Shown one piece after another: positions 21,813 through 52,863 of a stretch of DNA of 56,386 nt. Positions within the stretch are counted from its first letter, which is position 1. Each line of letters starts with the position of its first letter. Made by a program: the position numbers and the translations under genes. Origin of the DNA: Acidimicrobiales bacterium (GTDB taxonomy: Bacteria; Actinomycetota; Acidimicrobiia; Acidimicrobiales; MedAcidi-G1). The stretch lies in the NCBI GenBank assembly GCA_016845305.1, contig JAERSW010000016.1:1-56386 (forward strand), read 5' to 3'. Below the pieces are notes generated by a model. The model did not search any database. It saw nothing but the letters and a program-made list of their open reading frames with translations, and had not been told where the DNA came from.

Positions 21813-21868
21813 TGGTCGCCGTGTCCCGAACCCCGTCCGCCTCCCCGATGGCACACAGGAGCTGACCC

Positions 21869-22744: not shown

Positions 22745-22763
22745 TCGGACGACCGAGAACTCC

Positions 22764-24979: not shown

Positions 24980-25026
24980 CCCCGTGACCATCTCCGTGGT
25001 CCGGGGTGGGACCGGGAGCGAGTGAC

Positions 25027-35480: not shown

Positions 35481-35483
35481 GCC

Positions 35484-37820
35484 GTGCTCGACGTGATCTG
35501 GCTCGTGCCCGCCCTGCCCCTGGCCGGCTTCCTCGTGCTGCTGTTCGGCGGCAAGCGCCTCGGGGAGCCGTGGGCCGGCTGGCTGGCCACCGGCGCCATG
35601 GCCGGCTCGTTCCTCGTGACGCTGGGGGCGTTCGCCGAGATGCTGGGCCGCGACGCCCACGACCGCCGCTCGGTGACCACGCTCTTCGAGTGGGTGCCGG
35701 CCGGCGACCTGCGGGTCGACGCCGGGCTGCTGGCCGACCCGCTGTCGCTGACCATGTGCCTGTTCGTGACCGGCGTCGGCGCCCTCATCCACCTGTACTC
35801 GATCGGGTACATGCACGGCGACGGCGACTTCCCCCGGTTCTTCACCTACCTGAACCTGTTCGCCTTCTCCATGCTGATGCTGGTCCTGGGCGACAACCTG
35901 CTGCTGACCTTCCTCGGCTGGGAGGGCGTGGGCGCCTGTTCGTACCTGCTCATCTCGTTCTGGTTCACCGACGAGGCCAACGCCACGGCGGGCAAGAAGG
36001 CCTTCGTCACCAACCGGATCGGTGACTGGGGCTTCATGGTCGCCATCTTCCTGACGTTCTTCACGTTCGGGTCGATCGCCTACGTCGACGTGCTCGACAC
36101 CACGTCGGCGGGCACCGTCGCCCAGGGCACGGCCACCTTCATCGCCCTGATGCTGTTCGTGGGCGCCATCGGCAAGTCGGCCCAGTTCCCGCTGTACCTG
36201 TGGCTGCCCGACGCCATGGCCGGCCCGACGCCGGTCTCGGCGCTCATCCACGCCGCCACCATGGTCACCTCGGGCGTCTACCTGCTGACCCGGGTCAACC
36301 CGATCATCGCCGACGCCGCCGACTGGGTGCCCACGCTGATCGCCTGGACGGGCGCCGGCACGGCGCTGTTCGCGGCGACCATCGCCGTGGCCCAGCGCGA
36401 CATCAAGAAGGTGCTGGCCTACTCGACGGTCAGCCAGCTCGGCTACATGTTCCTGGCCGTGGGCTGCGGCGCCTACGTGGCCGCCGTGTTCCACATGGTC
36501 ACCCACGCCTTCTTCAAGGCGCTGCTGTTCCTGGGCTCCGGCTCGGTCATCCACGGCATGGACGGCGACCAGGACATGGCCCACTACGGCGCCCTCCGGA
36601 AGGCCATGCCCATCACCGCGGGCACGTTCGCCATCGGGTGGCTGGCCATCGCCGGCGTGCCGCCCTTCGCCGGGTTCTGGTCCAAGGACGAGATCCTGGC
36701 GTTCGCCTGGAACGAGAGCCCGGCGCTGTGGGCGGTCGGCCTGGTCACGGCGGTCCTCACCGCCTTCTACATGACCCGCCAGGTGGTGTTGACGTTCCTG
36801 GGCCGCGACCGGTTCGCCGACCCGCGCCCGGACGAGGTCGACGAGGCCTGGACCGCCGGCGTGGCCCGCGCCGAGGCCGAGGTGGCGGCGGCCGCCGACG
36901 CCGTTGCCGCCGCCGAGGCCGACCTCGAGGCCCGTCGCACCGCGGTCGGCGCCGCCAACGAGGGCCTCGCCACGGCGATGGCCGCCGCCACGGCCGGACC
37001 CGATCCCGACGCCGAGGGTGGTCCGACGGCCGATGACCTGGCCGCCGCGGTGGTCGCCGCCGAGCAGGCCGTGGCCGACGCCGACGCCGCGGTCGCCGCA
37101 GCCGTGGACGCCGTCGCCGCTGCCACCGACGCCCTGGCCACCGCCGAGGCCGCCCTGGCCGACGTGCGCGCCGCCGCCGAGTCCCGTCCCGCCCAGCCGG
37201 CACTGGCCCTCGACGGTCCGCCCGACGTCGGTCCGGTCGGCGACGACCTGCCCGACGCCGTGGCCGCCCGCGCCGCCCATCATCCGCACGAGTCGCCGTG
37301 GACGATGGCCCTCCCGCTGGTCGTGCTGGCCGGCCTCAGCATCGTCGGCGGCCTGATCCAGCTGCCGTTCTCGTCGAGCACCAAGCGCCTCGAGCACTGG
37401 CTGGAGCCCACCCTGTACCACAACGAGGTCCACCTGTCGGTGGGCGCCGGCACGCTGTGGCTGCTGGCCGTCGTGGCCGTGGTCGGCGGAGCGGTCGGCA
37501 TCACCGTCGCCGTGGCCGCCTACGGCCGCCGCCGCATCGACCACGAGCGCTTCGAACAGCCGATCCTGGCCGAGGCCTGGCGCTTCGACCGGTCCGTGTC
37601 GGCCTTCATGGGCGGTCCGGGCCGGGTCGGCTTCGACGCCACCGCGGCGTTCGACCGCCGCGTCGTGGACGGTGCCGTGAACGGCGTCGGCACGCTGGTC
37701 CGGGGCCTCGGCGGCGTGGCACGTCGCTTCCACAACGGCCTGGTCCGCACCTACGCGGTGGGCGTCGCCGTGGGTGCCGTGGCCCTCGTGGCCTGGTTCG
37801 TCTCGAGGAGCGGCTTCTGA
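35484..37820 (+). CDS. nuoL: NADH-quinone oxidoreductase subunit L (set 1), with a coiled-coil insertion
   Basis: A 778-residue antiporter-like NuoL. Standard motifs: NLLLTFLGWEGVGACSYLLI, LPDAMAGPTPVSALIHAATM with the key Lys/His region, and GFWSKDEI. After the helix ending LTAFYMTRQVVLTFLGRDR comes an Ala-rich segment of about 110 residues (about 458-568) made of repeated AAADAVAAAEADL-type heptads. The family then resumes at HPHESPWTMALPLVVLAG. NuoL is usually about 620-680 residues, so the excess is this insertion. GTG 35484 is the start. Confidence 0.93.
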   Translation: MLDVIWLVPALPLAGFLVLLFGGKRLGEPWAGWLATGAMAGSFLVTLGAFAEMLGRDAHDRRSVTTLFEWVPAGDLRVDAGLLADPLSLTMCLFVTGVGALIHLYSIGYMHGDGDFPRFFTYLNLFAFSMLMLVLGDNLLLTFLGWEGVGACSYLLISFWFTDEANATAGKKAFVTNRIGDWGFMVAIFLTFFTFGSIAYVDVLDTTSAGTVAQGTATFIALMLFVGAIGKSAQFPLYLWLPDAMAGPTPVSALIHAATMVTSGVYLLTRVNPIIADAADWVPTLIAWTGAGTALFAATIAVAQRDIKKVLAYSTVSQLGYMFLAVGCGAYVAAVFHMVTHAFFKALLFLGSGSVIHGMDGDQDMAHYGALRKAMPITAGTFAIGWLAIAGVPPFAGFWSKDEILAFAWNESPALWAVGLVTAVLTAFYMTRQVVLTFLGRDRFADPRPDEVDEAWTAGVARAEAEVAAAADAVAAAEADLEARRTAVGAANEGLATAMAAATAGPDPDAEGGPTADDLAAAVVAAEQAVADADAAVAAAVDAVAAATDALATAEAALADVRAAAESRPAQPALALDGPPDVGPVGDDLPDAVAARAAHHPHESPWTMALPLVVLAGLSIVGGLIQLPFSSSTKRLEHWLEPTLYHNEVHLSVGAGTLWLLAVVAVVGGAVGITVAVAAYGRRRIDHERFEQPILAEAWRFDRSVSAFMGGPGRVGFDATAAFDRRVVDGAVNGVGTLVRGLGGVARRFHNGLVRTYAVGVAVGAVALVAWFVSRSGF

Positions 37821-39454
37821 TGTCGGCGCTGGCCCCCACCGCCGTGCTGGCGGCGTCCTCGGCGGTGCCGTTCGCCGTGCTCCCGGCCCTCGTGCTGGTG
37901 CCGGCCGTCGGCGCCCTGCTCGTGGCCTGCCTGCCCCGCCGCCGCCCCGAGCTGCTCAAGCTGGCGGCCGTGACCACCTCGGTGGTGGTCGGCGGCATGG
38001 CCGTCTGGCTGCTGTCCGGCTTCGACGTCGACCACGGCGCCGACCTGCAGTTCGTGTCGTCGGCCACCTGGATGGCCGACCTGGGCATCTCGTGGACGCT
38101 CGGCGTCGATGGGATCTCGCTGTTCCTGGTCGTCCTGACCGGCGTGCTGTTCCCGATCGCCCTGCTGGCCGTCGACCCCGGCCACGACGACCGGGCCTAC
38201 TACGCCTGGCTGCTGCTGCTGGAGGCCGGGGTGATGGGCGTGTTCCTGGCCCTCGACCTCATGGTCTTCTTCCTGTGCTTCGAGGTCGTCCTCGTGCCGA
38301 TGTACTTCCTCATCGGCCGGTGGGGCCACGGCAACCGGGCGTACGCGGCGACCAAGTTCTTCCTGTACACGATGGCCGGGTCGGCCCTCATGCTGGTCGG
38401 GATCCTGGCGCTGGCCTTCCTGCACGCCGACGCGGTGGGCGGCCCGGTCACGTTCGACCTGGTGGCCATCGCCGAGGCCCAGGCCGTCGACGCCACCGCC
38501 GCCCGCTGGATCTTCGCCGCCTTCGCCCTGGCCTTCGCCGTGAAGGTGCCCATCTTCCCGCTCCACACCTGGCTGCCCGACGCCCACACCGAGGCGCCGA
38601 CGGCCGGCTCGGTCATCCTGGCCGGCGTCCTGCTGAAGCTCGGGACCTACGGCTTCCTGCGCTTCGGCCTCTACCTGTTCCCCGAGGCGTCCCACTTCTT
38701 CGCCCCGGTGTTCCTGACCCTCGGCGTGGTCGGCATCGTCTACGGCGCCGTGGTGGCCACGATGCAGCGCGACCTGAAGCGCCTGGTGGCGTACTCGTCG
38801 GTGGCGCACCTCGGGTTCATCGTGCTGGGCACGTTCGCCCTGAACACCGAGGGCATCGAGGGCGGCCTGCTGCAGATGGTCAACCACGGCGTCTCGACCG
38901 GCGCCCTGTTCCTGCTGGTCGGCATGGTCTACGAGCGCCGTCACACCCGCCAGATCGACGAGCTGGGCGGCCTGCAGAAGTCGGCGCCGGTGCTGGCCGG
39001 CGTGTTCACCGTCGTGATGCTGTCGTCGATCGGCCTGCCGGGACTGAACGGCTTCGTGGGCGAGTTCCTGGTCCTGGTCGGCGCCTTCAACGCCCACCGC
39101 TGGTTCGCCGTGGTGGCCGCCGGCGGCGTGATCCTGGCCGCCCTCTACCTGCTGTGGGCCTACCAGCGGGTCTTCCACGGTCCCGCCGAGGGCGACAACG
39201 CCACCATGCCCGACCTGCGGCTGCGCGAGGGCCTCGTCCTGGCGCCGCTGCTGGCCCTGATCGTGTTCATGGGCGTCTACCCGAAGCCGGTGATCGAGCG
39301 CATGGAACCCGCCGTCGACGCCCTGGTGGCCCACGTCGAGCACCACGTCGACGGCTTCACCGAGCCGACCAGCCAGTTCGGCTCCGAGGTCGAGCCCGGC
39401 CACGGTGACGACGACGGCCACGGCGAGTCCGACGACCACGGGGACGACCACTGA
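37820..39454 (+). CDS. nuoM: NADH-quinone oxidoreductase subunit M (set 1)
   Basis: A 544-residue antiporter-like NuoM with about 14 helices. Motifs include FFLCFEVVLVPMYFLIGRWG and FPLHTWLPDAHTEAPTAGSV. The C-terminal end is a short His/Asp tail (GHGDDDGHGESDDHGDDH). ATG overlaps the nuoL stop (TGATG). Confidence 0.95.
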   Translation: MSALAPTAVLAASSAVPFAVLPALVLVPAVGALLVACLPRRRPELLKLAAVTTSVVVGGMAVWLLSGFDVDHGADLQFVSSATWMADLGISWTLGVDGISLFLVVLTGVLFPIALLAVDPGHDDRAYYAWLLLLEAGVMGVFLALDLMVFFLCFEVVLVPMYFLIGRWGHGNRAYAATKFFLYTMAGSALMLVGILALAFLHADAVGGPVTFDLVAIAEAQAVDATAARWIFAAFALAFAVKVPIFPLHTWLPDAHTEAPTAGSVILAGVLLKLGTYGFLRFGLYLFPEASHFFAPVFLTLGVVGIVYGAVVATMQRDLKRLVAYSSVAHLGFIVLGTFALNTEGIEGGLLQMVNHGVSTGALFLLVGMVYERRHTRQIDELGGLQKSAPVLAGVFTVVMLSSIGLPGLNGFVGEFLVLVGAFNAHRWFAVVAAGGVILAALYLLWAYQRVFHGPAEGDNATMPDLRLREGLVLAPLLALIVFMGVYPKPVIERMEPAVDALVAHVEHHVDGFTEPTSQFGSEVEPGHGDDDGHGESDDHGDDH

Positions 39455-40944
39455 TGCTGGCCGTCGCCACCCCCGAGGTCCTGTGGTGGGCCCTGCTGCC
39501 CGTCCTGTTCCTGTCGGTCGGCGGGCTGCTCCTGCTGACCGTGGCGTCGCTGGTCCGGCGCCTGCCCGACTGGCTTCCCCAGGCGTGGACGGTGGTGACC
39601 GGCCTGGCCGTGCTGGTGGCCTGCGTGCCCATGTGGTGCGAGGTCCGCGACGAGGGTCCCCGCACCACGTTGGCCGGATCGGTCGCCGTGGACGGCTCGA
39701 CGGTGCTGGTCACCGCCGTGCTGGCCGCCGTGGTGGTGGCCGTGGCCCTGCTGGCCCGCCCGTACCTGCGCCGCGAGGACCTGCCCGGCGTCGAGGTCTA
39801 CGTCCTGCTCATGCTCTCGGCGGCCGGCGGCGTCGTCATGGCCTCGGCCGACGACCTGATCGTCCTGTTCCTCGGCCTCGAGATCCTGTCCATCGCCGTG
39901 TACGTGCTGGCCGCCCTCCACCTGCGTCGCATCGAGTCGCAGGAGGGGGCCATGAAGTACTTCGTGCTCGGCGCCTTCGCCTCGGCGTTCCTGCTCTACG
40001 GCATGGCGCTCGTCTACGGCGCCACCGGCTCGACCCGCCTGGCGCTCGTGGCCGAGCACCTGTCCGCCACGGTGCTGGTCGACGACTCGATGCTGTTGGC
40101 CGGCATCGCCCTACTGCTCGTCGGCCTGGCGTTCAAGGTGGCGGCCGTGCCGTTCCACGCCTGGACGCCCGACGTCTACCAGGGGTCGCCGACGCCGGTG
40201 GTGGCCTGGATGGCGGCCGGCGTGAAGGCGGCCGGCTTCGCCGCCATGGTGCGCGTGCTGGTCACGTCGCTGGGCACGCACGCCTCGGACTGGGCGCCGC
40301 CGGTCGGCGTGCTGGCCGTGGCCAGCGTCCTGGTCGGCGCCGTGGTCGCCGTGCTGCAGACCGACGTGCGCCGGATGCTGGCCTACTCGTCGGTCGCCCA
40401 TGCCGGCTTCCTGCTGCTCGGCGTGCAGGCCGCCGACGCCGACGGCACCGCGGCGGTCTACGCCTACCTGGTCGTGTACGCCCTGCTGGCCACCGGCAGC
40501 TTCGCCGTGCTGACCGTCATGGGTGGCGACGGCGACGCCGCCCACCACCTCGACGACTACCGGGGCCTGGCCCGTCGCCGGCCTGTGCTGGCCGGCGCCT
40601 TCACCCTGCTGCTGCTCGGCCAGGCCGGCGTGCCGTTCACCGGCGGGTTCGTGGCCAAGCTCGGCGTGCTCGCCGCAGCGGTGGCCGACCGGGGCTACTG
40701 GGTGGCCGGCCTCGCCATGCTGGGCGCGGCGGCCGCCGCCTTCGTCTACCTGCGGATCCTCGTCAGCATGTACCTGGAGGATCCGGACGCCGAGGCCGCC
40801 GACGGTTCGACCGGGCCGGCGGTGCCGCTCGGCGCCCGGGTCGTCATCGGCGTGGCCTGCGCCGGGGTGCTGTTCGTCGGCCTCGTGCCCGGTCCGCTGC
40901 TCGACCTGGCCCGCGACGCGGTGCCCGTCCTGGTGGGGAGCTGA
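39454..40944 (+). CDS. nuoN: NADH-quinone oxidoreductase subunit N (set 1)
   Basis: A 496-residue NuoN, the last gene of the first complex I set. Motifs: LFLGLEILSIAVYVLAAL, FKVAAVPFHAWTPDVYQGSP, and RRMLAYSSVAHAGFLLLG. ATG overlaps the nuoM stop. A 127-nt spacer with promoter and operator signals separates it from the second set. Confidence 0.95.
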   Translation: MLAVATPEVLWWALLPVLFLSVGGLLLLTVASLVRRLPDWLPQAWTVVTGLAVLVACVPMWCEVRDEGPRTTLAGSVAVDGSTVLVTAVLAAVVVAVALLARPYLRREDLPGVEVYVLLMLSAAGGVVMASADDLIVLFLGLEILSIAVYVLAALHLRRIESQEGAMKYFVLGAFASAFLLYGMALVYGATGSTRLALVAEHLSATVLVDDSMLLAGIALLLVGLAFKVAAVPFHAWTPDVYQGSPTPVVAWMAAGVKAAGFAAMVRVLVTSLGTHASDWAPPVGVLAVASVLVGAVVAVLQTDVRRMLAYSSVAHAGFLLLGVQAADADGTAAVYAYLVVYALLATGSFAVLTVMGGDGDAAHHLDDYRGLARRRPVLAGAFTLLLLGQAGVPFTGGFVAKLGVLAAAVADRGYWVAGLAMLGAAAAAFVYLRILVSMYLEDPDAEAADGSTGPAVPLGARVVIGVACAGVLFVGLVPGPLLDLARDAVPVLVGS

Positions 40945-40971
40945 CCGTGTCCGCCGCCCCCGCCCGGGACT

Positions 40972-40989
40972 TCGTGAACGCGATCACAT
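40972..40989. promoter_or_regulatory. Candidate Rex operator of the second nuo operon
   Basis: TCGTGAACGCGATCACAT matches 11 of the 14 fixed positions of TTGTGAA-N4-TTCACAA and shares GTGAACGCG with the operator at rex. It ends 4 bp before a TAGCCT -10 element, almost the same geometry as at rex (5 bp). Confidence 0.7.
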
Positions 40990-40993
40990 CCGG

Positions 40994-40999
40994 TAGCCT
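40994..40999 (+). promoter_or_regulatory. Distal -10 candidate (TAGCCT) of the second nuo operon
   Basis: TAGCCT directly follows the Rex operator, so it would be repressed by Rex. It would give a leader of about 65 nt before GTG 41072. Confidence 0.4.
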
Positions 41000-41057
41000 G
41001 CGCCCGTTGCCGGGCCGGTGCGCGTACCGCCCGTCCTCGTCCGCCCGCCCGATTCGT

Positions 41058-41063
41058 TAGGTT
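41058..41063 (+). promoter_or_regulatory. Proximal -10 candidate (TAGGTT) of nuoA set 2, leaderless type
   Basis: TAGGTT lies 8 nt before GTG 41072 and matches the rex -10 hexamer. If active it would give a leaderless nuoA mRNA that starts beyond the Rex operator. Confidence 0.4.
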
Positions 41064-41071
41064 CTGCCTTC

Positions 41072-41437
41072 GTGTCCGACTTCCTCCGCAGCTGGCTCGT
41101 GCTGGTCGTCTTCGGCGGCCTCGCCGTGCTGCTCGTGTCGGCGTTCCTGGGCCTCGGCAGCCTCCTGCGGCCGTCGCGCGACACGCCGCAGAAGTCGATC
41201 AACTACGAGTCCGGCGTCGACCCGCAGGGCGACATGTGGGCCCAGTCGAACATCCGGTACTACGTGTTCGCCCTGATGTTCGTGCTGTTCGACGTCGAGG
41301 CCGTCTTCATCTTCCCGTGGGCCACCCGCCTCGAGGTGTACGACGTCTTCGGCCTGGTCGAGATGGCCATCTTCATCTTCATCCTCGCCCTCGGTCTGTT
41401 CTACGCCTGGCGCAAGCGCCTGCTGCGGTGGGTCTGA
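41072..41437 (+). CDS. nuoA: NADH-quinone oxidoreductase subunit A (complex I, set 2)
   Basis: A 121-residue NuoA, shorter than the set 1 copy. The loop [14 protein letters not shown] has Ser where set 1 and most NuoA have the conserved Cys (YECG), a visible difference at the quinone cavity. [12 protein letters not shown] is intact. Three helices. GTG 41072 is supported by the TAGGTT element upstream. Confidence 0.93.
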
Positions 41438-41454
41438 GGGGCACGGGAGGACGC

Positions 41455-41955
41455 ATGGGACTCGTCGAGAGCGGAAAGCTGCCGAAGCCGCTCACCAAGC
41501 TGCTCAACGTCAGCCGCAAGTACTCGCTGTGGGTGTACCAGTGGGGCCTGGCGTGCTGCGCCATCGAGATGGGCGCCGCGTTCGCCTCGCCCCGCTACGA
41601 CGTCATGCGCCTCGGGGTCATCCCCTTCCCGGCCAGCCCCCGCCAGGCCGACCTGGTGGTCGTGTCCGGCACGGTGACCGACAAGATGGCCCCGGCCGTC
41701 CGGCGCCTCTACGAGCAGATGCCGGAGCCCAAGTACGTGATCTCCATGGGGTCGTGCGCCAACTGCGGCGGCCCGTACTGGGACAGCTACTCGGTGACCA
41801 AGGGCGTCGACCAGATCATCCCCGTCGACGTCTACGTGCCCGGCTGCCCGCCCCGTCCGGAGGCCCTGCTGGAGGGCATCGTGCTCCTCCAGGAGCGCAT
41901 CGCCACCGAGGACATGACCGAGCGTTGGACCGGTGATCCCATTGTCGTCAGCTGA
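41455..41955 (+). CDS. nuoB: NADH-quinone oxidoreductase subunit B (set 2)
   Basis: A 166-residue NuoB with all N2 ligands: the CC pair in [11 protein letters not shown], the first Cys of GSCANCGG, and the Cys of PGCPPRPE. A second cysteine in SCANCGG is extra relative to set 1. ATG 41455 follows GGGAGG. The protein lacks the long tail of the set 1 copy, and the paralogues are clearly diverged rather than recent duplicates. Confidence 0.95.
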
Positions 41956-42664
41956 CGCCGAGACCGTGGACGCCGAGGCCACCGAGGAGGCAGCCGCGGA
42001 GGTCGCGTCCGACGAGCAGCGCGACGCGCTGGTCGCGGCGCTGGCCGACGCGCTCGGCGACGGCCTGGTGGAGAGCCACGTGGAGCCGGGCGTGGACGTC
42101 TGGGTCCGGGTCACGGCCGAGGCCTGGGTGGACGCCGCCCGTGCCCTGCGGGACCGCTGCGGCATGGCCTACTTCGGCTACCTGTCGGCCATCGACTGGA
42201 TGCCGTCGCCCTACGGCCGCGACATGGACGCCCAGGTCGACCTGACCGCCGGTGACGGCGCCGACGACGCCGCCGACGAGGCCGCCACCGGTGGCTACGA
42301 GACCGGCGTGGCCGGCGGCGACACCCGCTTCCAGCTGCTGGCCCGGGTCCACGACCCGGTCGGGCACGTGGGCATCACCGTCAAGGCCGACCTGGCCGGC
42401 GACCGGCCCGAGGCCGACTCGTGGATCCCGGTGTACCCGGGCGCCGACTGGCACGAGCGCGAGGCCTGGGAGATGTTCGGCATCACCTTCCGCGACCACC
42501 CCAACCAGGTGCACCTGTACCTGCCGTCGCACTTCGAGGGGAACCCGCTGCGCAAGGACTATCCGCTGCTGGCCCGCCGGGTGAAGCCCTGGCCGGGCAT
42601 CGTCGACGTCGAGCTCATGCCGGGCGAGGACGACGAGGACGAGGCCGAAGGGGACGAGTCGTGA
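41933..42664 (+). CDS. nuoC: NADH-quinone oxidoreductase subunit C (set 2)
   Basis: A 243-residue NuoC. The core ([15 protein letters not shown], then [20 protein letters not shown] and [17 protein letters not shown]) is clear. An acidic insertion (about residues 100-125) and an acidic tail ([12 protein letters not shown]) flank it. Start: GTG 41933 overlaps nuoB by 23 nt; TTG 41942 is an alternative. The N-terminal 35 residues are Glu/Ala-rich. Confidence 0.9.
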
Positions 42665-43833
42665 CCGCCCTGGGAGACACCCGACAGCTGGCCTACATCG
42701 CCGGCCAGGCCAGCGACGCCCGGGTCAACGTCGAGCTCGAGACCGAGGGCATGACCCTCAACATCGGTCCGCAGCACCCGGCCACCCACGGCACCCTGCG
42801 GGTGATCGTGAAGCTGGACGGCGAGCGCGTCGTGGCCGCCGAGCCCGTCATGGGCTACATGCACCGCGGCTACGAGAAGCTCTCCGAGGTCCGGACGTAC
42901 CCGCAGGTCACCACGCTGGTCAACCGCATCGACTGGCTGGGCAGCTTCGCCAACGAGGTGCCGTTCATCCTGGCCGCCGAGCGGCTCATGGACGTCGAGG
43001 CGCCGCCGCGGGCCCAGTGGATCCGCACCGCCCTCTTCGAGCTGTCCCGCATCGCCAACGTGGTCCTGTTCCTCGGCGACATGGGCGTGCAGCTGGGCGC
43101 CGTCACCCCGGTGTTCTTCGCCTTCCGCGACCGCGAGTTCGTCCTCAACCAGATCGAGGCCGTCACCGGTGGCCGCTTCCACCCCAACTTCGACCGCATC
43201 GGCGGCCTGAAGGACGACCTCCCCAAGGGCTGGATCGAAGAGACGAAGGGCGTGCTGGGCCGCATCCGCACGTTCTGCGACGAGATGGAGGACCTCGTCA
43301 CCGGCAACGAGATCTTCCAGGCCCGGACCCGCGGCATCGGCGTCATCCCCGCCGACGTCGGCCTGTCCTACGGCCTGTCGGGCGCCAACATCCGTGCCTC
43401 GGGCGTCGACTGGGACCTCCGCCGTGATGGTGGCGTGGGCCTCGTCCACGACCAGCTGGACTGGAAGGTCTGGACGCATCCCGACGGCGACTCGTTCGCC
43501 CGCTACTGGGTGCGCCTCCAGGAGGTCCGCGAGGCCTGCGACATGGTCGACCAGTTGCTGGACGGCATCCCGTCGGGTCCGGTCATGGCCAAGGTGCCCC
43601 GCATCATCAAGGTCCCGGCCGGCGAGGCGTACGTCGAGACCGAGAACCCGCTGGGCGTCATGGGCTACTACGTGGTGTCCAAGGGCGACCTGGTCCCGTA
43701 CCGGGTCAAGATCCGGTCGGCCTCGTTCAACAACATCTCCATCACGCCGTGGTTGCTCGAGGGCACCTACGTGCCGGACGTGATCTCGATCCTGGCCAGC
43801 CTGTACTTCATCCTCGGGGACATCGACCGGTGA
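42661..43833 (+). CDS. nuoD: NADH-quinone oxidoreductase subunit D (set 2)
   Basis: A 390-residue NuoD, without the long arm of set 1. The quinone-site region is [18 protein letters not shown], with R47 equivalent to the arginine methylated by NDUFAF7 in mitochondria. The end, [10 protein letters not shown], differs from the usual xGEVDR of NADH-linked NuoD. GTG 42661 overlaps the nuoC stop. The next gene is nuoH, so nuoE, nuoF and nuoG are missing here. Confidence 0.95.
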
Positions 43834-44894
43834 TGGGCTCGGTGATGGGATCGATGACCGACACCCTGACGCTCGCCGTCGAGCTGGCCTGGTGGCAGCA
43901 GACCGGCATCCGCGCCGTGGTCGGCCTGCTGGCCGTCCTGCTGCCCGCCGGCACGCTCGTCTACCTGTTCCTGTTCAAGATGATGAGCTTCATGCAGAGC
44001 CGGCTCGGCCCCATGGAGGCCGGCCCCTACGGCTCGCTGCAGCTCCTCGCCGAGGTCGGGAAGTTCCTCCAGAAGGAGGACATCCTCCCCCGCAAGGCCG
44101 ATCGGGTCGTCTTCAAGGCGGCGCCGTTCGTGGTGCTGATCTCCACGTTCCTGCTGGTGCTGGTCATCCCGGCCGGCCCCGACGCCTGGTTCATCGACGT
44201 CGACACCGGCATCTTCCTGGCCCTCGCCGTGTCGTCCATCTCGGTCATCGGGATCCTCATGGCCGGCTGGGCGTCGTCGTCGAAGTACTCGCTGCTGGGT
44301 GGCCTGCGGGCCGCCGGCCAGTTGGTGGCCTACGAGCTGCCGCTGGTGCTGGCCGTCATGGGCGTGGTCATCCAGGCCGGCACCCTGAACGTCCAGGACA
44401 TCGTCATGTCCCAGGCCAACGGCGAGATCTTCGGCTGGGGCGGGATCGGCAACCCGTTCATCCTCACCCAGTTCGTGGGCTTCGCCATCTTCCTGGTGGC
44501 CGTCCAGGCCGAGCTGACCCAGCCGCCGTTCGACATGCCGGTGGCCGAGTCCGAGATCGTGACCGGCTACCTCACCGAGTACACCGGCCTGCGGTTCCTG
44601 CTGTTCTTCATCGGCGAGTTCGCCACGGCCGGCATCTTCGCCGCCCTCGCCGCCACCCTGTTCCTGGGCGGCTGGTACGTGCCGGGCCTCGACCCGACCA
44701 GCGACCTGTTCAACGTGATCGGCCCGGCCATCCTGCTCGGCAAGGTGATCCTGGTGGCCTTCCTGATCTTCTGGTTCCGGTTCACCTACCCGCGGTTCCG
44801 CGAGGACCAGCTCCAGCAGCTGGCGTGGAAGGTGCTCATCCCGCTGTCGCTGGCCAACATCGTGCTGACCGGCGTGCTGAAGGTGGTCTTCTGA
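43833..44894 (+). CDS. nuoH: NADH-quinone oxidoreductase subunit H (set 2)
   Basis: A 353-residue NuoH with about eight helices. Conserved loops: [58 protein letters not shown], and [18 protein letters not shown]. The first loop lacks the ERK motif seen in set 1. ATG 43833 overlaps the nuoD stop; ATG 43845 and 43854 are in-frame alternatives. Confidence 0.93.
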
Positions 44895-45400
44895 TGCCCG
44901 CTCCGAAGCTCCCCGGCCTGGTCAAGGGCCTCGGCGTCACGCTGAAGACGATGCTGCGCACCCTCACCAGGGGCTCGCACACCGTGCAGTACCCGAAGGT
45001 CAAGGAGGCGCCGACGCCCCGGGCCCGCGGCGTCATCACGCTGCACGAGGACAACTGCACGGCCTGCATGCTGTGCGCCCGCGAGTGCCCGGACTGGTGC
45101 ATCTACATCGAGGGCCACAAGTACAAGGCCCCGCCGCGTCGCCCCGGCGGCAAGCCCCGCCAGAAGAACGCCCTGGACCGCTTCGACATCGACTTCTCGC
45201 TGTGCATGTACTGCGGGATCTGCGTCGAGGTGTGCCCGTTCGAGGCGCTGTTCTGGTCGCCGGAGTTCGAGTACTCCGAGCCGAAGATCGCCGACCTCCT
45301 CCACGACAAGTCGAAGCTCGGCCAGTGGATGGAGACCGTCCCGGACTTCCAGGACTACGAGTCGGGCAGCGAGGCCAAGAAGGCGAAGGTGCCGCGGTGA
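44894..45400 (+). CDS. nuoI: NADH-quinone oxidoreductase subunit I (set 2)
   Basis: A 168-residue NuoI with two intact [4Fe-4S] motifs, [12 protein letters not shown] and [12 protein letters not shown]. With NuoEFG missing it would be the electron entry point, directly or through a soluble donor such as a ferredoxin. The loop between the clusters is unusually basic ([17 protein letters not shown]), a plausible docking surface for an acidic partner. ATG overlaps the nuoH stop (TGATG). Confidence 0.93.
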
Positions 45401-45942
45401 CCGCACTGGCCGCCCTTGAGGGCATGGACCGCCTCACCAGCGGCGAGGCCCTCGTGGCCCAGAACGTGGCCTTCGCCATCATGGCCATCACGATGGTCGT
45501 CGCCGCGCTGCGCATGGTGACCACCCGCAACGTGGTCCACGCCGCGCTGTACCTGGTGGTGGTCCTGGCCGGGGTGGCCGGGCAGTTCCTGCTCCTCGGC
45601 GCCGAGTTCGTCGGCGTCACCCAGGTGATGGTCTACATCGGCGCCATCGTCGTCCTCTTCCTGTTCGGCATCATGCTCACCAAGGGCTCGTTCGGCGAGG
45701 ACGACGGCGTGTCGTCCGAGAAGCGCCTCATGGCCGGCCTCGTGGGCCTGCTCGTGTTCGGCGTGATGGCCGCCGCCCTGGTCGACTCGTTCGAGGACGC
45801 CGAGGTGGCCCGCGAGGCCCCGAGCACCACCGCCGAGGTCTCCGACAGCATCTTCAGCACCTACATCGTCCCGTTCGAGGCGGTGTCCGTCCTGCTGCTG
45901 GCCGCCCTGATCGGCGCCATCGTGGTGGCGAGGAAGGACTGA
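45397..45942 (+). CDS. nuoJ: NADH-quinone oxidoreductase subunit J (set 2)
   Basis: A 181-residue NuoJ with five helices; [20 protein letters not shown] is the conserved third helix. A hydrophilic loop ([16 protein letters not shown]) precedes the last helix. GTG 45397 overlaps the nuoI stop (GTGA). Confidence 0.93.
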
Positions 45943-45943
45943 G

Positions 45944-46243
45944 ATGCTGCTGAACCAGTTCCTCCTGCTGTCCGCCGTCCTGTTCTCGATCGGCGTCTAC
46001 GGCGTCCTCGCCCGTCGCAACGGCGTGCTGGTGCTCATGTCCATCGAGCTGATCCTGAACGCCGTGAACATCAACCTCGTGGCCTTCGGCGCCTTCCGGG
46101 CCACCGTGGGCGGCGAGGTGTTCGCCCTGTTCATCATCGCCGTGGCCGCCGCCGAGGTCGGCGTGGGCCTGGCGATGGTCCTGCTCATGTACCGCAACCG
46201 TCGGTCGATCGACCTGACGGCGATCGACCAGCTGAGGGGCTGA
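45944..46243 (+). CDS. nuoK: NADH-quinone oxidoreductase subunit K (set 2)
   Basis: A 99-residue NuoK with three helices and the two membrane glutamates ([13 protein letters not shown] and [14 protein letters not shown]). ATG 45944 follows the nuoJ stop by one nucleotide. Confidence 0.95.
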
Positions 46244-46247
46244 GCCG

Positions 46248-48533
46248 ATGTCCGCACTCCTCACCCTCGCCGCCTCGGCCTCCACGGCCGCCCACGGCGC
46301 CGGCGACCTGGCCCTCGGGATCACCGAGGGCGGCAACTGGTTCCTGCGCAACGTCTGGCTGATCCCGCTGCTGCCGGCGCTGTCGTTCGTGGCCATCCTG
46401 TTCTTCGGGAAGCGCATGCCCCGCGGCGGCTCGGAGATCGGCATCGCCGCGGTGGGCATCGCCTTCGTGCTGGCCCTGCTGACCGGTGCCGCCTGGATCG
46501 ACCACCGTGACAACTTCCACGGCGAGGAGGTCCACGCCGCCGTCGTCGTCGACGAGGCCCACGGTGCCCACGGCGATGACCATGGCGACGACCATGGCGA
46601 GGGCCACGGCCACGCGTCGCTGGCCGTCCACCAGACGGTGACCTGGTTCCAGACCAACGGCGTGGAGTTCACCGTCGGCACCCTCGTCGACGGACCGGCC
46701 GTGATGATGCTGCTCGTCGTCACCCTGGTGTCGCTGCTGGTGCACGTGTACTCCACCGACTACGTGGCCGGCGACCGCCGCTACACGCACTTCTTCGCCT
46801 TCCTGTCGCTGTTCAGCGCCTCGATGCTCCTGCTGGTCGTGTCCGAGAACACGCTGCAGTTGCTGTGCGCCTGGGAGCTGGTGGGCGTCTGTTCGTTCGC
46901 CCTCATCGGCCACTGGTGGGAGGAGAAGCCCAACAGCGACGCCGCCCTGAAGGCCTTCCTCACCAACCGGGTCGGCGACATGGGCCTGCTCGTCGGCGTG
47001 ACGATCCTGTTCTTCGCCGCCGGCGCCGCGCTGCCCGGCACCTTCGGCTCGTTCTCCATCGCCGAGACCAACGCCCTGGCCAACAGCGGGGCCCTGTCGC
47101 ACACTGCCCTGCTGGTCGCCTCGTGCTGCCTGATGGCCGCCGTGATGTCGAAGTCCGGCCAGTTCTTCCTGCACACCTGGCTGCCGGACGCCATGGCCGG
47201 CCCCACCCCGGTCTCGGCGCTCATCCACGCCGCGACCATGGTCGTGGCCGGCGTGTTCATGATCGCCCGCATGTACGGCGTGTTCTTCGAGGGCTTCCAG
47301 ATCGGCGGCAGCTCTATCAACCTGATGGCCTTCATCGGCGGCCTCACCACCATCGTGGGTGCCTGCCTGGCCTTCGTGCAGCGCGACATCAAGAAGGTGC
47401 TCGCCTACTCGACCATCTCGCAGCTGGGCTACATGGTGATGGCCCTCGGCGTGGGCGCCTGGACGGCGGCCATGTTCCACCTCTTCACCCACGCCTTCTT
47501 CAAGGCCTGCCTGTTCCTCGGCTCCGGCTCGGTCAGCCACGCCGTCCACAGCTTCGACATGAAGTCCGACATGGGCGGCCTCCGCAAGGACATGCCGCAT
47601 ACGTACCGGACGTTCATGATCGGCACCATCGCCCTGGCCGGCCTCCCGCCGTTGGCCGGCTTCTGGTCCAAGGACGAGATCCTCGTCGGCACCGGCGGCT
47701 GGGGCCTGATGGGCGGCACCGACGCCAACGGCGCCTACACCCTCATGCTGGGCATGGGCATGCTCACCGCCGCGCTCACCGCGGCCTACATGACCCGCTG
47801 CGTGTACCTCACCTTCTTCGGCGAGTTCCGCGGCCACGGCCACCCGCACGAGTCCGGTCCCCGTATCACCGTGCCCCTGTGGATCCTGGCCTTCCTGGCC
47901 GTCTTCGCCGGCTTCCTGAACATGCCCAAGGGCTTCCAGTTGGCGCCCAAGGGCCTCCAGGAGCGGTTCGGCCACTTCGTGGAGCCCGTCGCCGGCTACT
48001 TCCCGGCCATCCACCACGCCCGCCCCAGCTGGTCGCTGGCCATCGTGTCGACCATCGTCGTGCTGTGCGGCGTGGGCGCGGCGGCCTGGTACTACTTCGT
48101 GAAGGTCGAGGCCGCCTCGAAGGCCGCCGGGACGAGCCTCACCGAGCTACCCAACGGCCCGACCACCCGGTGGCCGCTGGCCCGCATGGGCCACACCCTG
48201 CTGGCCAACAGGTACTACCTCGACCACCTCTACAACGGCGTCGTGGCCGACGGCACCAAGGGCCCGGTGGCCCGCCTCGCCAACCGAATCAACCAGGACG
48301 TCATCGACCGCACCGTGGACCTGACCGGCGAGACCGCCGTGAAGGCCGGGACCATCGTCTACGAGAAGATCGACCAGCTCGTGGTCGACGGCGCGGTCAA
48401 CGCCTCCGGACGGGGTTCGTCCGGGGCGGGTGAGGAACTTCGCAAGATCAATTCCGGCAAGGTCCAGAGCTACGCGGCGATCCTGTTCGCCGCGGCGACG
48501 GTCCTGGCCGGAGTGCTCATCGTCATCGTCTAG
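46248..48533 (+). CDS. nuoL: NADH-quinone oxidoreductase subunit L (set 2)
   Basis: A 761-residue NuoL. Core motifs: QLLCAWELVGVCSFALIGHWW, LPDAMAGPTPVSALIHAATM and GFWSKDEI. A His/Asp-rich loop (AHGAHGDDHGDDHGEGHGHA, near residues 106-125) lies between early helices, and a hydrophilic C-terminal section (about 630-740) precedes the last helix. It lacks the Ala-rich coil of set 1. ATG 46248 follows nuoK by 4 nt. Confidence 0.93.
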   Translation: MSALLTLAASASTAAHGAGDLALGITEGGNWFLRNVWLIPLLPALSFVAILFFGKRMPRGGSEIGIAAVGIAFVLALLTGAAWIDHRDNFHGEEVHAAVVVDEAHGAHGDDHGDDHGEGHGHASLAVHQTVTWFQTNGVEFTVGTLVDGPAVMMLLVVTLVSLLVHVYSTDYVAGDRRYTHFFAFLSLFSASMLLLVVSENTLQLLCAWELVGVCSFALIGHWWEEKPNSDAALKAFLTNRVGDMGLLVGVTILFFAAGAALPGTFGSFSIAETNALANSGALSHTALLVASCCLMAAVMSKSGQFFLHTWLPDAMAGPTPVSALIHAATMVVAGVFMIARMYGVFFEGFQIGGSSINLMAFIGGLTTIVGACLAFVQRDIKKVLAYSTISQLGYMVMALGVGAWTAAMFHLFTHAFFKACLFLGSGSVSHAVHSFDMKSDMGGLRKDMPHTYRTFMIGTIALAGLPPLAGFWSKDEILVGTGGWGLMGGTDANGAYTLMLGMGMLTAALTAAYMTRCVYLTFFGEFRGHGHPHESGPRITVPLWILAFLAVFAGFLNMPKGFQLAPKGLQERFGHFVEPVAGYFPAIHHARPSWSLAIVSTIVVLCGVGAAAWYYFVKVEAASKAAGTSLTELPNGPTTRWPLARMGHTLLANRYYLDHLYNGVVADGTKGPVARLANRINQDVIDRTVDLTGETAVKAGTIVYEKIDQLVVDGAVNASGRGSSGAGEELRKINSGKVQSYAAILFAAATVLAGVLIVIV

Positions 48534-48544
48534 GAGACGCCGAC

Positions 48545-50224
48545 ATGGAAAACCTGCTCGACGGCTGGGGCATCACGCTCGCCACGTTCTCACCGCTGGT
48601 GGGCGTGGCCGTCATGATGCTCATTCCCAAGGAACGCGAGGACCAGCACAAGCTGATCGCGCTCGTCACCTCCCTGTGGGTGGCGTTCGTCGGCGTGCTG
48701 CTGCTCATCTGGTTCGACCTGGACCACACCGACAAGCTGCAGTACGTCGTCGACAAGGTCTGGATCGACGTCATCTCCAGCCGCTACGCGGTGGGCATCG
48801 ACGGCATGTCGCTGCCGCTGATCCTGCTGACCATGCTCGTGGTGCCGCTGTGCATCGTCTACAGCTGGAACCACTTCCCGGATCCGGTCAACCCGAAGGC
48901 GTTCCTGATCCTCATCCTCATCCTCGAGACGGGGATGATCGGCACCTTCGTGGCCCAGGACCTCGTCCTCTTCTTCGTGTTCTTCGAGGTCGTCCTGCTG
49001 CCGATGTTCTTCATGATCGCGGTGTGGGGCGGCGACGACCGGCGCTACGCATCGCTCAAGTTTTTCCTGTACACGTTGTTCGGCTCGGCGTTGATGCTGG
49101 TCAGCTTCCTGGCGCTGTTCTTCCTGACCGGGGCCGACACGTTCACCTTCTCCGGCCTGGCCGATGCGGTGGCCGCCGGCGGCGTGTCCCGCAACGCCCA
49201 GTTGTGGATCTTCGGCGGAATGTTCCTGGGCTTCGGCATCAAGGTGCCGATGTTCCCGTTCCACACGTGGCTGCCCGACGCCCACACCCAGGCCCCGACG
49301 GTCGGCTCGGTCATCCTGGCCGCCGTGCTGTTGAAGCTCGGCACCTACGGCTTCGTCCGCATCGCCATCCCGATCCTGCCCGAGGCCGCCGTGTCGTGGG
49401 CTCCGTGGATCGGCCTGCTGGCCGTGGTCGGCATCATCTACGGCGCCCTCGGGTGCCTGGCCCAGACCGACATGAAGCGCCTCATCGCCTTCTCGTCGGT
49501 GGCCCACATGGGCTTCGTGATGCTGGGCATCGCCACGCTGACCGACTTCGGCATCAACGCGGCGATCATGGGCATGGTCGCCCACGGCCTCATCACCGGC
49601 ATGCTCTTCTTCCTCGCCGGCTCGGTGAAGGAGCGCTACCACACCCTCGAGATCAGCCGCCTCGGCGGCCTGCTGGTCCAGGCGCCCCGCATGGGCTGGA
49701 TCTTCGGCTTCTGCGCCATGGCGTCGCTCGGCCTGCCCGGCCTGGCCGGCTTCTGGGGCGAGTTCCCGGCCATCCTGTCGGCCTACAACCCGGGCAACGG
49801 CGTCCCGGTCGAGACCTTCCGGACCTTCATGGTCATCGCCGCGCTCGGCACGGTGCTGGCCGCCGGCTACCTGCTGTGGCTGCTGCAGCGGGCAGCCTTC
49901 GGCACCCCACCCGAGGAGTTCGCCGACGACCCGCACATCACCGACACCACGAAGCACGAGTGGATCTCGTGGGCGCCGCTGCTGGCCCTCATCGTGGCCA
50001 TCGGCATCTATCCGAACCTGGTGTTCCGGGTCACCGACGGTGCCGTGGACGCCTCCCTGACGCCGTGCCTGAGCGTCGAGGGCGAGGCCGCCGAGAAGCT
50101 GGACTGCGCGGAGGTCTACAAGATCGGCCACGACGACGGCCACGGCGACGGCCACGACGACGACGGCCACGGCGACGAGCACGACGACGAGCACGACGAC
50201 GAGCACGCCGCGAGCGGCAACTGA
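48545..50224 (+). CDS. nuoM: NADH-quinone oxidoreductase subunit M (set 2)
   Basis: A 559-residue NuoM. Motifs: LFFVFFEVVLLPMFFMIAVWG and FPFHTWLPDAHTQAPTVGSV. The C-terminus carries about 30 residues made almost only of His, Asp, Gly and Glu, encoded by a repetitive stretch. ATG 48545 follows AGGAGACGCCGAC, a fair ribosome site. Confidence 0.95.
   Translation: MENLLDGWGITLATFSPLVGVAVMMLIPKEREDQHKLIALVTSLWVAFVGVLLLIWFDLDHTDKLQYVVDKVWIDVISSRYAVGIDGMSLPLILLTMLVVPLCIVYSWNHFPDPVNPKAFLILILILETGMIGTFVAQDLVLFFVFFEVVLLPMFFMIAVWGGDDRRYASLKFFLYTLFGSALMLVSFLALFFLTGADTFTFSGLADAVAAGGVSRNAQLWIFGGMFLGFGIKVPMFPFHTWLPDAHTQAPTVGSVILAAVLLKLGTYGFVRIAIPILPEAAVSWAPWIGLLAVVGIIYGALGCLAQTDMKRLIAFSSVAHMGFVMLGIATLTDFGINAAIMGMVAHGLITGMLFFLAGSVKERYHTLEISRLGGLLVQAPRMGWIFGFCAMASLGLPGLAGFWGEFPAILSAYNPGNGVPVETFRTFMVIAALGTVLAAGYLLWLLQRAAFGTPPEEFADDPHITDTTKHEWISWAPLLALIVAIGIYPNLVFRVTDGAVDASLTPCLSVEGEAAEKLDCAEVYKIGHDDGHGDGHDDDGHGDEHDDEHDDEHAASGN
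50129..50207 (+). repeat. Low-complexity His/Asp codon repeats at the end of nuoM set 2
   Basis: Alternating GGCCACGGCGAC and GACGACGAGCAC units encode a His/Asp/Gly/Glu tail. The GACGAGCAC core occurs three times at 12-bp spacing near 50174-50206. The variable order of units suggests slippage. Confidence 0.75.
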
Positions 50225-50228
50225 TCCC

Positions 50229-51737
50229 ATGGCCGTCGACCTGCTCACCCTGGCGTTCCAGCGCCCCCACATCGACTGGCACGGCATCGCGCCCGAGCTG
50301 GTCCTGCTGGGCGTCGGCGCGCTGATCACGCTGGTCGACATCGTCTTCCTGGAGAAGGCCCGCCCCATCACCGCGGCGCTGGCCGGCCTCGGCCTGCTGG
50401 CCACCGCCGTGCCGCTGCTCACCCTGGCGGCCGACGGCACCGACCGGGTCATGTTCGACGGCGCCTACGTGGTCGACGAGTTCTCGCTCGTCATGAAGGC
50501 CATCTTCCTGCTGTCGGCCTACGTGGTCGTCCTGCTGTCCACCAACTACGTGGCCGAGGGCGACTACTGGGAGAACGAGTACTACGGCCTCCTGCTTGCC
50601 TCGGTCATGGGCATGGTCATGATGGCCTCGGCCCGCGACCTCGTCTCCATCTTCGTGGCCCTCGAGCTGCTGTCCATCCCGGCCTACCTGATGGTGGCGT
50701 GGCGCAAGCGCGACCTGCGCAGCAACGAGGCGGGCCTGAAGTACTACCTGATGGGCGTGTTCGCCTCGGCGGTGATGCTCTACGGCATGTCGCTGCTCTA
50801 CGGCGTCAGCGGCTCCACGATGCTGGACGACATCGGCACCGCGGTGGCCGCCGCCGGCTCCTCGGTCCCGGTGGTCACCATGGCCATCGTGTTCATCGTG
50901 GCCGGCTTCGCCTTCAAGGTCTCGGCCGTGCCGTTCCACACGTGGGCGCCCGACGTCTACGAGGGCGCCCCCACGCCGGTCACCGCCTTCCTGGCCGTGG
51001 CGTCCAAGGCGGCCGGCTTCGTCGCCCTCCTGGTCCTGGTGCTCGTCGCCTTCCCGTCGGCGTCGGACGTGTGGGAGCCGCTGGTCTGGATCCTCGCCGC
51101 CGCCTCGATGACCGTCGGCAACATGGTCGCCCTGCGCCAGACCAACGTGGTGCGCCTCATGGCCTACTCGGGCATCGCCCAGACCGGCTTCATGATCGCC
51201 CCGCTGGCCGTGGCCGGCCACGGCGGCGGCAGCGCCGACCAGGCCCTCTCTGCGGTCGTCACCTACCTCGCCATCTACGCGGCGATGAACCTCGGCGCCT
51301 TCGCCGTGATCATCGTGCTGGCCCGCAAGACCGGGTCGGCCGAGACCACCTCGTTCGCTGGCGCCTTCCACTACGCCCCGGGCCTGACGGTGGCCATGAC
51401 GATCTTCCTGTTCTCGTTGGCCGGCATCCCGCCGCTGGGCGGCTGGTTCGCCAAGTTCGAGGTCTTCCGGGTCCTGGCCACCGCCGGCGAGCCGTGGGGC
51501 TACGTGCTGGCCGCCGTCGGTGCCGTCAACTCGGTGATCGCCCTCTACTACTACGCGGCCCTCGCCCGCCGCATGTGGGCCGACGACGCCCCGGACGGCG
51601 ACCACGCGCCGGTGCCGATGACGCCGTCGTTGGCCTCGGCGCTGGGCATCTGCGGCATCGTGACGCTGGCCTTCGGCGTGGCGCCGCAGCTGGTGGCCCG
51701 CTTCACCGACGTCACCCTCGCCGCCCTCGGGGGCTGA
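50229..51737 (+). CDS. nuoN: NADH-quinone oxidoreductase subunit N (set 2)
   Basis: A 502-residue NuoN, last subunit of the second set. Motifs: FVALELLSIPAYLMVAW, FKVSAVPFHTWAPDVYEGAP and VRLMAYSGIAQTGFM. ATG 50229 follows nuoM by 4 nt. Confidence 0.95.
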   Translation: MAVDLLTLAFQRPHIDWHGIAPELVLLGVGALITLVDIVFLEKARPITAALAGLGLLATAVPLLTLAADGTDRVMFDGAYVVDEFSLVMKAIFLLSAYVVVLLSTNYVAEGDYWENEYYGLLLASVMGMVMMASARDLVSIFVALELLSIPAYLMVAWRKRDLRSNEAGLKYYLMGVFASAVMLYGMSLLYGVSGSTMLDDIGTAVAAAGSSVPVVTMAIVFIVAGFAFKVSAVPFHTWAPDVYEGAPTPVTAFLAVASKAAGFVALLVLVLVAFPSASDVWEPLVWILAAASMTVGNMVALRQTNVVRLMAYSGIAQTGFMIAPLAVAGHGGGSADQALSAVVTYLAIYAAMNLGAFAVIIVLARKTGSAETTSFAGAFHYAPGLTVAMTIFLFSLAGIPPLGGWFAKFEVFRVLATAGEPWGYVLAAVGAVNSVIALYYYAALARRMWADDAPDGDHAPVPMTPSLASALGICGIVTLAFGVAPQLVARFTDVTLAALGG

Positions 51738-51768: not shown

Positions 51769-52863
51769 ATGGCGCCCGCGGATCCTCCCGGCCCCGAACC
51801 GGTCGCCCCCCTCGGCGTCCGCCTGGCCGACCGGATCCGCGCCGAGGGGCCCCTCGGCTACGCCGACTGGGTCGAGGCCTGCCTGTACGACCCGGACGCC
51901 GGCTTCTACGCCGGCGGTGGCTCGGCCGGACGCCGGGGCGACTTCCTGACCTCGCCCGAGGTGGGCCCCCTGTTCGGCGCCGTGCTGGCCCGCTGGTTGG
52001 ACGACCGCTGGGAGGCCCTGGGTCGGCCGGAGGGCTTCACCGTGGTCGAGGCGGCGGCCGGGGTGGGCACCCTGGCCCGCACGGTGCTGGCCGCCGAGCC
52101 GGCCTGCCTGGCCGCCGGGCGCTACGTGATGGTGGAGCGGTCGTCGACGCTGCGGGCCGCCCAGCCCGTCGGCGACGGCCTGGCCTCGGTGGCCGACCTC
52201 TCCGAGGTGGAACCGATCGGGGCCGGGGCGGTGCTGGCCAACGAGCTGCTCGACAACCTGGCCTTCGACCTGCTCGAGCACGATGGCTCCGCCTGGCGGC
52301 GGGTGCTCGTCGACATCGGTGACGGTGGCTTCGTGGAGGTCCTCGGTGCCGAGGCCGAGCCTCCGGCGGCCCACTCCCCAGTGACCCGGCCCGCGTCCGT
52401 CGCCGGTGCCCGGATTCCCGTACAGGACGAGGCCCGACGCTGGGTGGAGGCGGCCCTCGACCTCGTGGCACGGGGCAGCGTGCTGGTCGTCGACTATGCC
52501 TCCACCACCCCGGCGATGGCCGACCGGCCGGTCGACGGATGGCTCCGCACCTACCGCGACCATGAGCGCGGCGGCCCGCCGACCGACGCCCCGGGCAGCC
52601 AGGACGTCACCGTCGAGGTGGCCGTCGACCAGCTGCCGGCTGGAGCGGCCACCTGCACCCAGGCCGAGCTGCTCCGGCGCCACGGCATCGACGACCTGGT
52701 CGAGGCCGGCCGCCGCCTCTGGGAGGAACGGGCCCACCTGGGCGACCTCGAGGCGATGCGGGCCCGCAGCCGCATCGCCGAGTCCGAGGCCCTGCTCGAC
52801 CCCGAGGGCCTCGGGGGCTTCACCGTGCTGGAGTGGACGCTGGGCGGTGCCGTCGGCTCCTGA
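51769..52863 (+). CDS. MidA/NDUFAF7-family SAM-dependent methyltransferase (COG1565)
   Basis: A 364-residue methyltransferase. Family motifs are clear: RIRAEGPLGYADWVEACLYD, YDPDAGFYAGG, GDFLTSPEVGPLFG, the SAM-site VVEAAAGVGTLA, ANELLDNLAFDLL, VLVVDYAST and QDVTVEVAVDQL. Mitochondrial NDUFAF7 dimethylates an arginine of NDUFS2 (NuoD) and is needed to assemble complex I. The gene begins 31 nt after nuoN, so a role in methylating one or both NuoD proteins here is a well-supported inference. Confidence 0.88.
   Translation: MAPADPPGPEPVAPLGVRLADRIRAEGPLGYADWVEACLYDPDAGFYAGGGSAGRRGDFLTSPEVGPLFGAVLARWLDDRWEALGRPEGFTVVEAAAGVGTLARTVLAAEPACLAAGRYVMVERSSTLRAAQPVGDGLASVADLSEVEPIGAGAVLANELLDNLAFDLLEHDGSAWRRVLVDIGDGGFVEVLGAEAEPPAAHSPVTRPASVAGARIPVQDEARRWVEAALDLVARGSVLVVDYASTTPAMADRPVDGWLRTYRDHERGGPPTDAPGSQDVTVEVAVDQLPAGAATCTQAELLRRHGIDDLVEAGRRLWEERAHLGDLEAMRARSRIAESEALLDPEGLGGFTVLEWTLGGAVGS

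Follow-up and report, generated by a model that had tools for sequence, protein, structure and literature searches.

A second, 11-subunit complex I operon without nuoEFG in an Acidimicrobiales bacterium: tryptophan at the quinone-site tyrosine position of NuoD and a likely methyltransferase partner

The window analysed here, a stretch of 56,386 nucleotides from an Acidimicrobiales bacterium (contig JAERSW010000016.1 of assembly GCA_016845305.1; own genome, G000, 2.92 Mb and 98% complete), carries two operons for complex I on its forward strand. The first (set 1) is a complete nuoA-N at 25006-40944; the second (set 2), nuoABCDHIJKLMN at 41072-51737, has no nuoEFG and begins, with a GTG start codon at 41072, 127 bases after the end of nuoN1. 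Direct reading and Pfam matches for all 11 subunits bear out the preliminary description, which had placed such an operon directly behind a 14-subunit one; its span for set 2 is correct, but the start of 40972 that it gave for the segment was loose. The set 2 genes overlap or are closely spaced and, because nuoD2 and nuoH2 overlap by one base, there is no space for EFG. The presence of A-D and H-N with the absence of E-G, by which an 11-subunit complex I of the nuo2 type is recognised, is thus found in set 2. The gene row extends beyond the segment as previously bounded, in that a methyltransferase gene begins 31 bases past nuoN2. The kind of enzyme is already known, as the actinobacterial nuo2 type; the new part is a tryptophan in NuoD2 and the pairing of nuoD2 with a gene for an NDUFAF7 relative.

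25006-40944, + strand: set 1, nuoA-N, NADH type (Pfam, translation, tblastn)
26647-28020, + strand: NuoD1, Thr and Tyr at the two diagnostic sites
41072-41437, + strand: nuoA2 (PF00507)
41455-41955, + strand: nuoB2, tandem Cys and further Cys as for cluster N2 (PF01058, Cys list)
41933-42664, + strand: nuoC2 (PF00329)
42661-43833, + strand: nuoD2, Arg69, Trp92, His43 and Gln144, no CxxC (Pfam, alignments)
43833-44894, + strand: nuoH2 (Pfam); closest solved structures: NdhA of cyanobacteria and chloroplasts
44894-45400, + strand: nuoI2, two CxxCxxCxxxC motifs (two 4Fe-4S clusters) and one extra Cys (Pfam, Cys list)
45397-45942, + strand: nuoJ2 (PF00499)
45944-46243, + strand: nuoK2 (PF00420)
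46248-48533, + strand: nuoL2 (Pfam)
48545-50224, + strand: nuoM2 (Pfam)
50229-51737, + strand: nuoN2 (Pfam)
51769-52863, + strand: PF02636 methyltransferase, MidA/NDUFAF7 family, directly after nuoN2 (Pfam, 4.9e-31)

In set 1, the genes A, B, C, D, E, G, H, K and M were called by Pfam and F by PF01512; I, J, L and N were called from their translations, backed by tblastn, which matches them in set-1 operons elsewhere. A scan between the operons (40700-41300) turned up neither sigma-70-like promoters nor terminator patterns, a result that is weakly informative at 72% G+C. The proposal in the preliminary description that both enzymes share one redox control is unsupported.

The NuoD subunits were compared across 119 genomes, taken as one even draw from the phylum. 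The 120 NuoD loci read comprise all 46 best matches to NuoD2, which together with the window define set 2 (n=47), nearly all those with Thr at the second diagnostic site discussed below and some others, so that NuoD counts are counts among the matches listed. Left out were eleven mid-scoring NuoD (E 1e-81 to 1e-89, families f18 and f24), low-scoring ones, the second match in G038 and fragments in G022; 42 of the 119 genomes are therefore without any NuoD read, 16 with no match at 1e-20 and 26 with matches that were left out. Two loci classed as 'other', L052 and L117, have marginally higher scores against NuoD2 than against NuoD1. A further 80 loci from named genomes were retrieved by a pattern containing GYMHRG.

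NuoD2 aligns without gaps with Thermus Nqo4 over the relevant stretch of residues, at an offset of 5, placing Trp92 at the site of Nqo4 Tyr87. This tyrosine, a ligand of the quinone head group, is described as strictly conserved (PMC8119997), but the site is Trp in all 47 set-2 NuoD, as compared with Tyr in 60/60 set-1 and 15/15 other sequences. It is also Trp in 80/80 of the named loci; in these the Arg of the second diagnostic site was selected, since the search pattern contains GYMHRG, and the Trp was not. Set 2 departs in this respect from the canonical quinone site, although its second head-group ligand, His at Nqo4 position 38 (His43 in NuoD2), is retained in 47/47. With Trp92 in place of the head-group tyrosine, quinone would be held and protonated differently than in canonical complex I. 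It might instead be that set 2 reduces no quinone and serves another acceptor, as the loss of a residue described as strictly conserved could suggest; the invariant His38 and the alignment of NuoH2 along its full length with NdhA make this very unlikely. A point against the overall reading of set 2 given below is Gln at the Asp139 site (Gln144 of NuoD2) in seven set-2 NuoD, including that of the window. As a marker of set 2 this position was dropped, because set 1 also varies there (Glu in 40, Asp in 20).

The second diagnostic residue, Arg69 of NuoD2, corresponds to Nqo4 position 64 and to Arg85 (R85) of human NDUFS2, near cluster N2; the site is Arg in 47/47 set-2, Thr in 60/60 set-1 and Arg in 15/15 other NuoD. 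The arginine is reported to be symmetrically dimethylated in the bovine, human, Pichia and Paracoccus enzymes and unmodified in Escherichia coli, with Thr in Thermus (PMC3750175). In Yarrowia its replacement is described as abolishing quinone reduction, with loss of cluster N2 (PMC8042128), and in humans the methylation of NDUFS2 R85 is assigned to NDUFAF7 (PMC3829151).

The protein encoded directly after nuoN2 belongs to the family of NDUFAF7 (PF02636, 108.5 bits against a cut-off of 23.3) and matches solved structures that include PDB 1zkd (1.3e-20) and the NDUFAF7 homologue 5ztz (3.8e-15). PF02636 is matched in 40 of the 119 genomes, namely in 34 of the 47 with set 2 versus six of the 72 others, a co-occurrence that, like those given below, ignores kinship among the genomes. 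The six are five of the 13 genomes in which the only NuoD read was another Arg-type one and one of the 17 in which only the Thr type was read (G092), with none among the 42 lacking a NuoD read. Both genes lie on the same contig and no more than 25 kb apart in 22 of the 34 set-2 genomes that have both. Within the window's own class, eight genomes have PF02636 near nuoD2, directly after nuoN2 in six and farther downstream in G045 (about 7 kb) and G113 (about 12 kb).

The association extends to genomes in which nuoD2 has left its operon. Fourteen genomes, belonging to five families, have a set-2 operon without nuoD2, located apart from that gene; such lone nuoD2 are defined by there being no other set-2 gene by tblastn in the surrounding 4-20 kb, with nuoC2 having moved along in G021. 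In 14/14, PF02636 is 0.8-8.6 kb from the lone nuoD2, and nuoD1 lies on a different contig or is separated from PF02636 by 69 kb or more. Among the named loci, 35 of the 37 lone nuoD2 have PF02636 at a gap of -35 bases to 6.8 kb, and the two without it (L205 and L219) are at contig ends. The operonic named loci show PF02636 in 23/43; of the remaining 20, 12 are without nuoN2 and eight end no more than 2.4 kb past nuoN2, five of these more than 1.4 kb beyond it. That the PF02636 gene stays with nuoD2 when nuoD2 leaves the operon makes NuoD2 the likely client of the encoded protein. Set 1, having Thr at the Arg site, cannot receive this methylation.

Alternatively, the PF02636 protein may be unrelated to NuoD2 and the pairing may reflect inherited synteny. 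The number of independent moves is small, the 14 lone nuoD2 falling in three groups of the tree, but the genes pair in two distinct arrangements, behind the operon and beside a lone nuoD2, and in Streptomyces PF02636 occurs on either side of lone nuoD2 and in either orientation, with ends that often almost touch. Moreover, of three genomes of family f13, one (G036) has nuoD2 in the operon and no PF02636 match, whereas in G006 and G021 both genes have moved and are paired. Given also that the known substrate of the PF02636 family is a NuoD homologue, we regard mere synteny as unlikely.

Several observations nevertheless weigh against a dedicated NuoD2 methyltransferase. The first Gly of the S-adenosylmethionine (SAM) motif is Ala in the window protein (motif I EAAAGVG, compared with EAGAGPG in its relative L007; other relatives vary), and PF02636 lies on a different contig from nuoD2 in 12 of the 34 set-2 genomes that have both. 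Genome G092 has two PF02636 matches (on contigs C57 and C59), with only a Thr-type NuoD read. Finally, PF02636 is unmatched in 13/47 set-2 genomes although their NuoD2 retains the Arg, so that methylation cannot be required everywhere; the Arg of E. coli is likewise unmethylated (PMC3750175). A literature search of titles and abstract openings, with few subscription journals, found no report of the NuoD2 Trp and no link of nuoD2 with NDUFAF7/MidA.

With regard to the age of set 2, a quick maximum-likelihood tree of NuoD (122 rows, with SH-aLRT support only) groups all 47 set-2 NuoD in one clade (support 99) and all 60 set-1 NuoD in another (support 100), with 15 further NuoD outside both; each clade is spread across many families of the phylum. 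The tree excludes a recent duplication and agrees with the proposal in the preliminary description of an ancient second enzyme, as do the sequence differences listed there, all of which are present (YECG versus YESG in NuoA, GEVDR versus GDIDR in NuoD, and the missing ERK of NuoH2). Group 4 NiFe hydrogenases have CxxC pairs in their NuoD-like subunit; NuoD2 has two Cys and no CxxC, so a hydrogenase was ruled out.

The set-2 clade (support 99) places NuoD2 with the set-2 NuoD of genomes that have the streptomycete nuo layout, and Streptomyces records themselves hold NuoD2 relatives at 49-52% identity. In the scan of named genomes the nearest match to the window NuoD2 is in a Candidatus Microthrix record (92%), and close NuoD2 occur in records titled Acidimicrobiia, Acidimicrobiaceae, Ilumatobacteraceae, Microthrix and Actinomarina, and also in Kribbella, Actinomadura, Planotetraspora, Microtetraspora, Herbidospora, Streptosporangium, Kitasatospora and Streptomyces. 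One record titled Bifidobacterium breve (L165) contains a set 2 with NuoD 79% identical to that of the window and is probably a mislabelled metagenome assembly. In streptomycetes two such gene sets, nuo and nuo2, have already been described (PMC3765725, PMC8388888, PMC9239103), the function of nuo2 being called unclear (PMC9239103).

The preliminary description had also proposed a donor other than NADH for set 2, and the genome content supports this as an inference. NuoF is matched twice in the genome, once in set 1 and once in a NuoE-NuoF fusion (contig C110) that adjoins a formate dehydrogenase alpha subunit. The second NuoF was set aside as a partner for set 2, as belonging to the formate dehydrogenase; that this stray NuoEF docks onto set 2 is, beyond the existence of the fusion, opposed both by its neighbour and by the finding of at most one NuoF match in 25/47 set-2 genomes, and is highly improbable. 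The motif CNRT*HAPSVVG of the formate dehydrogenase itself (L003, G000:C110:18000-36000, near 11300 on the minus strand) contains an in-frame TGA that likely encodes selenocysteine.

A related proposal is that set-2 subunits mix with those of set 1 and so continue to use the set-1 NADH module. Such a hybrid enzyme has been suggested for Streptomyces (PMC9239103) and, for NuoL2 and NuoM2, in PMC3765725, and a single NuoF in 22/47 set-2 genomes would accord with it. However, set 2 encodes B, C, D and I subunits besides the antiporter ones, its NuoD residues are distinct from those of set 1 in 47/47, and one genome (G103, 94% complete) has set 2 with no NuoF or set-1 NuoD found, making a hybrid quite unlikely.

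The best candidate for the source of electrons is 2-oxoglutarate:ferredoxin oxidoreductase (KOR), encoded by korAB on contig C34 in the window's own genome. A KOR-type protein is present in 45/47 set-2 genomes, as opposed to 11/72 without set 2 (p 8e-20, kinship ignored), a count omitting three weak matches (38-40% identity, in G014, G078 and G089); among genomes with set-1 or set-2 NuoD the figures are 45/47 and 10/17 (p 8e-4, kinship again ignored). The own genome gave no match to 2-oxoglutarate dehydrogenase in a search that was positive in 6/14 control genomes, and all 15 set-2 genomes without such a match, the own genome included, have KOR. The same exchange of KOR for 2-oxoglutarate dehydrogenase is reported for UBA5794 actinobacteria (PMC12008989). 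Absence of the dehydrogenase was dropped as a general mark of set 2, the enzyme being present in 32/47 set-2 genomes. In G023 and G107, which are large genomes with the streptomycete nuo layout, korBA is 4.6 kb from nuoA2, and in G080, a single-contig genome of the window's order, set 2, PF02636 and KOR are all missing together.

The case for KOR is weakened by the location of its genes and by exceptions in both directions. Only two of the 45 genomes with both have korBA near nuo2; in the other 43 the distance is 36 kb (G062) or more, or the genes are on separate contigs. KOR also occurs in the 11/72 genomes without set 2 and was not found in two with it, G102 and the above-mentioned G103. As G102 (98% complete) has no POR_N match either, another donor would have to serve there.

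Reduced F420 (F420H2), delivered by an FpoF/FrhB-like protein as for methanogen Fpo, is a less likely donor. Proteins with PF04432 (FrhB_FdhB_C) are encoded on contigs C27 and C58 of the own genome, and the family is commoner with set 2 (34/47 versus 25/72). By contrast, it is unmatched in 13/47 set-2 genomes, including G023 and G107; both own copies are off the contig of the window, with no FpoF-type protein beside the operon; and the FpoD model, with a cut-off of 600 bits, gives NuoD2 a score of 322. Overall, this donor is unlikely.

The streptomycete nuo2 operon (SCO4599-SCO4608 in S. coelicolor) resembles set 2 in having no NuoEFG and in occurring in a genome that also has a full nuoA-N. 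It differs in that nuoD2 is separate from the operon, as described previously (PMC3765725, PMC8388888), and, in the named loci examined here, paired with PF02636, whereas in the window nuoD2 is within the operon and PF02636 follows nuoN2. An 11-subunit complex of a strict anaerobe, likened to set 2 by gene order and not by sequence, has the same order nuoABCDHIJKLMN without EFG, and ferredoxin is proposed as its donor. The NDH-1 complexes of cyanobacteria and chloroplasts, like set 2, have no NADH module, and among solved chains their NdhA comes closest to NuoH2. Chloroplast NDH-1 uses ferredoxin as its donor. Ferredoxin is likewise given as the donor of cyanobacterial NDH-1 (PMC11238625). In cyanobacterial NdhH (6hum_H) the R85 site is Arg, as in NuoD2, but the Tyr87 site is Tyr, unlike the Trp of NuoD2. 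With the NDUFAF7/MidA system acting on NDUFS2, the window shares both the methyltransferase family and the target Arg, albeit with a slightly changed SAM motif.

Other features of the window include cytochrome b (two genes), Rieske and cytochrome c genes immediately upstream of set 1 (20282-23969), an Ala-rich insertion of about 105 residues with a coiled-coil-like look in NuoL1 (36861-37179), and His/Asp-rich stretches in NuoL2 (46550-46620) and at the end of NuoM2 (50130-50215).

Taken together, the evidence makes it somewhat more probable than its negation (about 0.55) that set 2 is a nuo2-type, 11-subunit complex I acting as a KOR-fed ferredoxin:menaquinone oxidoreductase, with a PF02636-methylated Arg69 and a quinone site containing Trp92. 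KOR, which seems to replace 2-oxoglutarate dehydrogenase in the citric acid cycle of the own genome, would probably be the main source of reduced ferredoxin. Electrons from ferredoxin would most likely enter at the two 4Fe-4S clusters of NuoI2 and pass via cluster N2 in NuoB2 to menaquinone, the site for which retains His38 but has Trp instead of Tyr87; protons would be pumped via NuoL2, NuoM2 and NuoN2, in each of which the antiporter domain is present. Arg69, beside N2, would most likely be dimethylated by the PF02636 protein, as NDUFS2 is by NDUFAF7 in mitochondria, and Trp92 may alter the holding and protonation of the quinone relative to canonical complex I. NADH would be handled by set 1.

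More tentatively, at slightly less than even odds, set 2 may represent an Actinomycetota-wide clade of complex I that reduces quinone with Trp in place of a Tyr regarded as essential, is matured by a dedicated NDUFAF7 methylating its NuoD and operates beside a canonical Tyr/Thr enzyme in the same cell. Three questions thereby become testable in culturable Streptomyces: what the donor of a complex I without NuoEFG is, what NDUFAF7 methylation contributes apart from the Arg itself (an experiment proposed for Yarrowia in PMC8042128), and whether the quinone-site Tyr is needed for coupling. The presence of both versions of the quinone site in one cell provides a built-in control.

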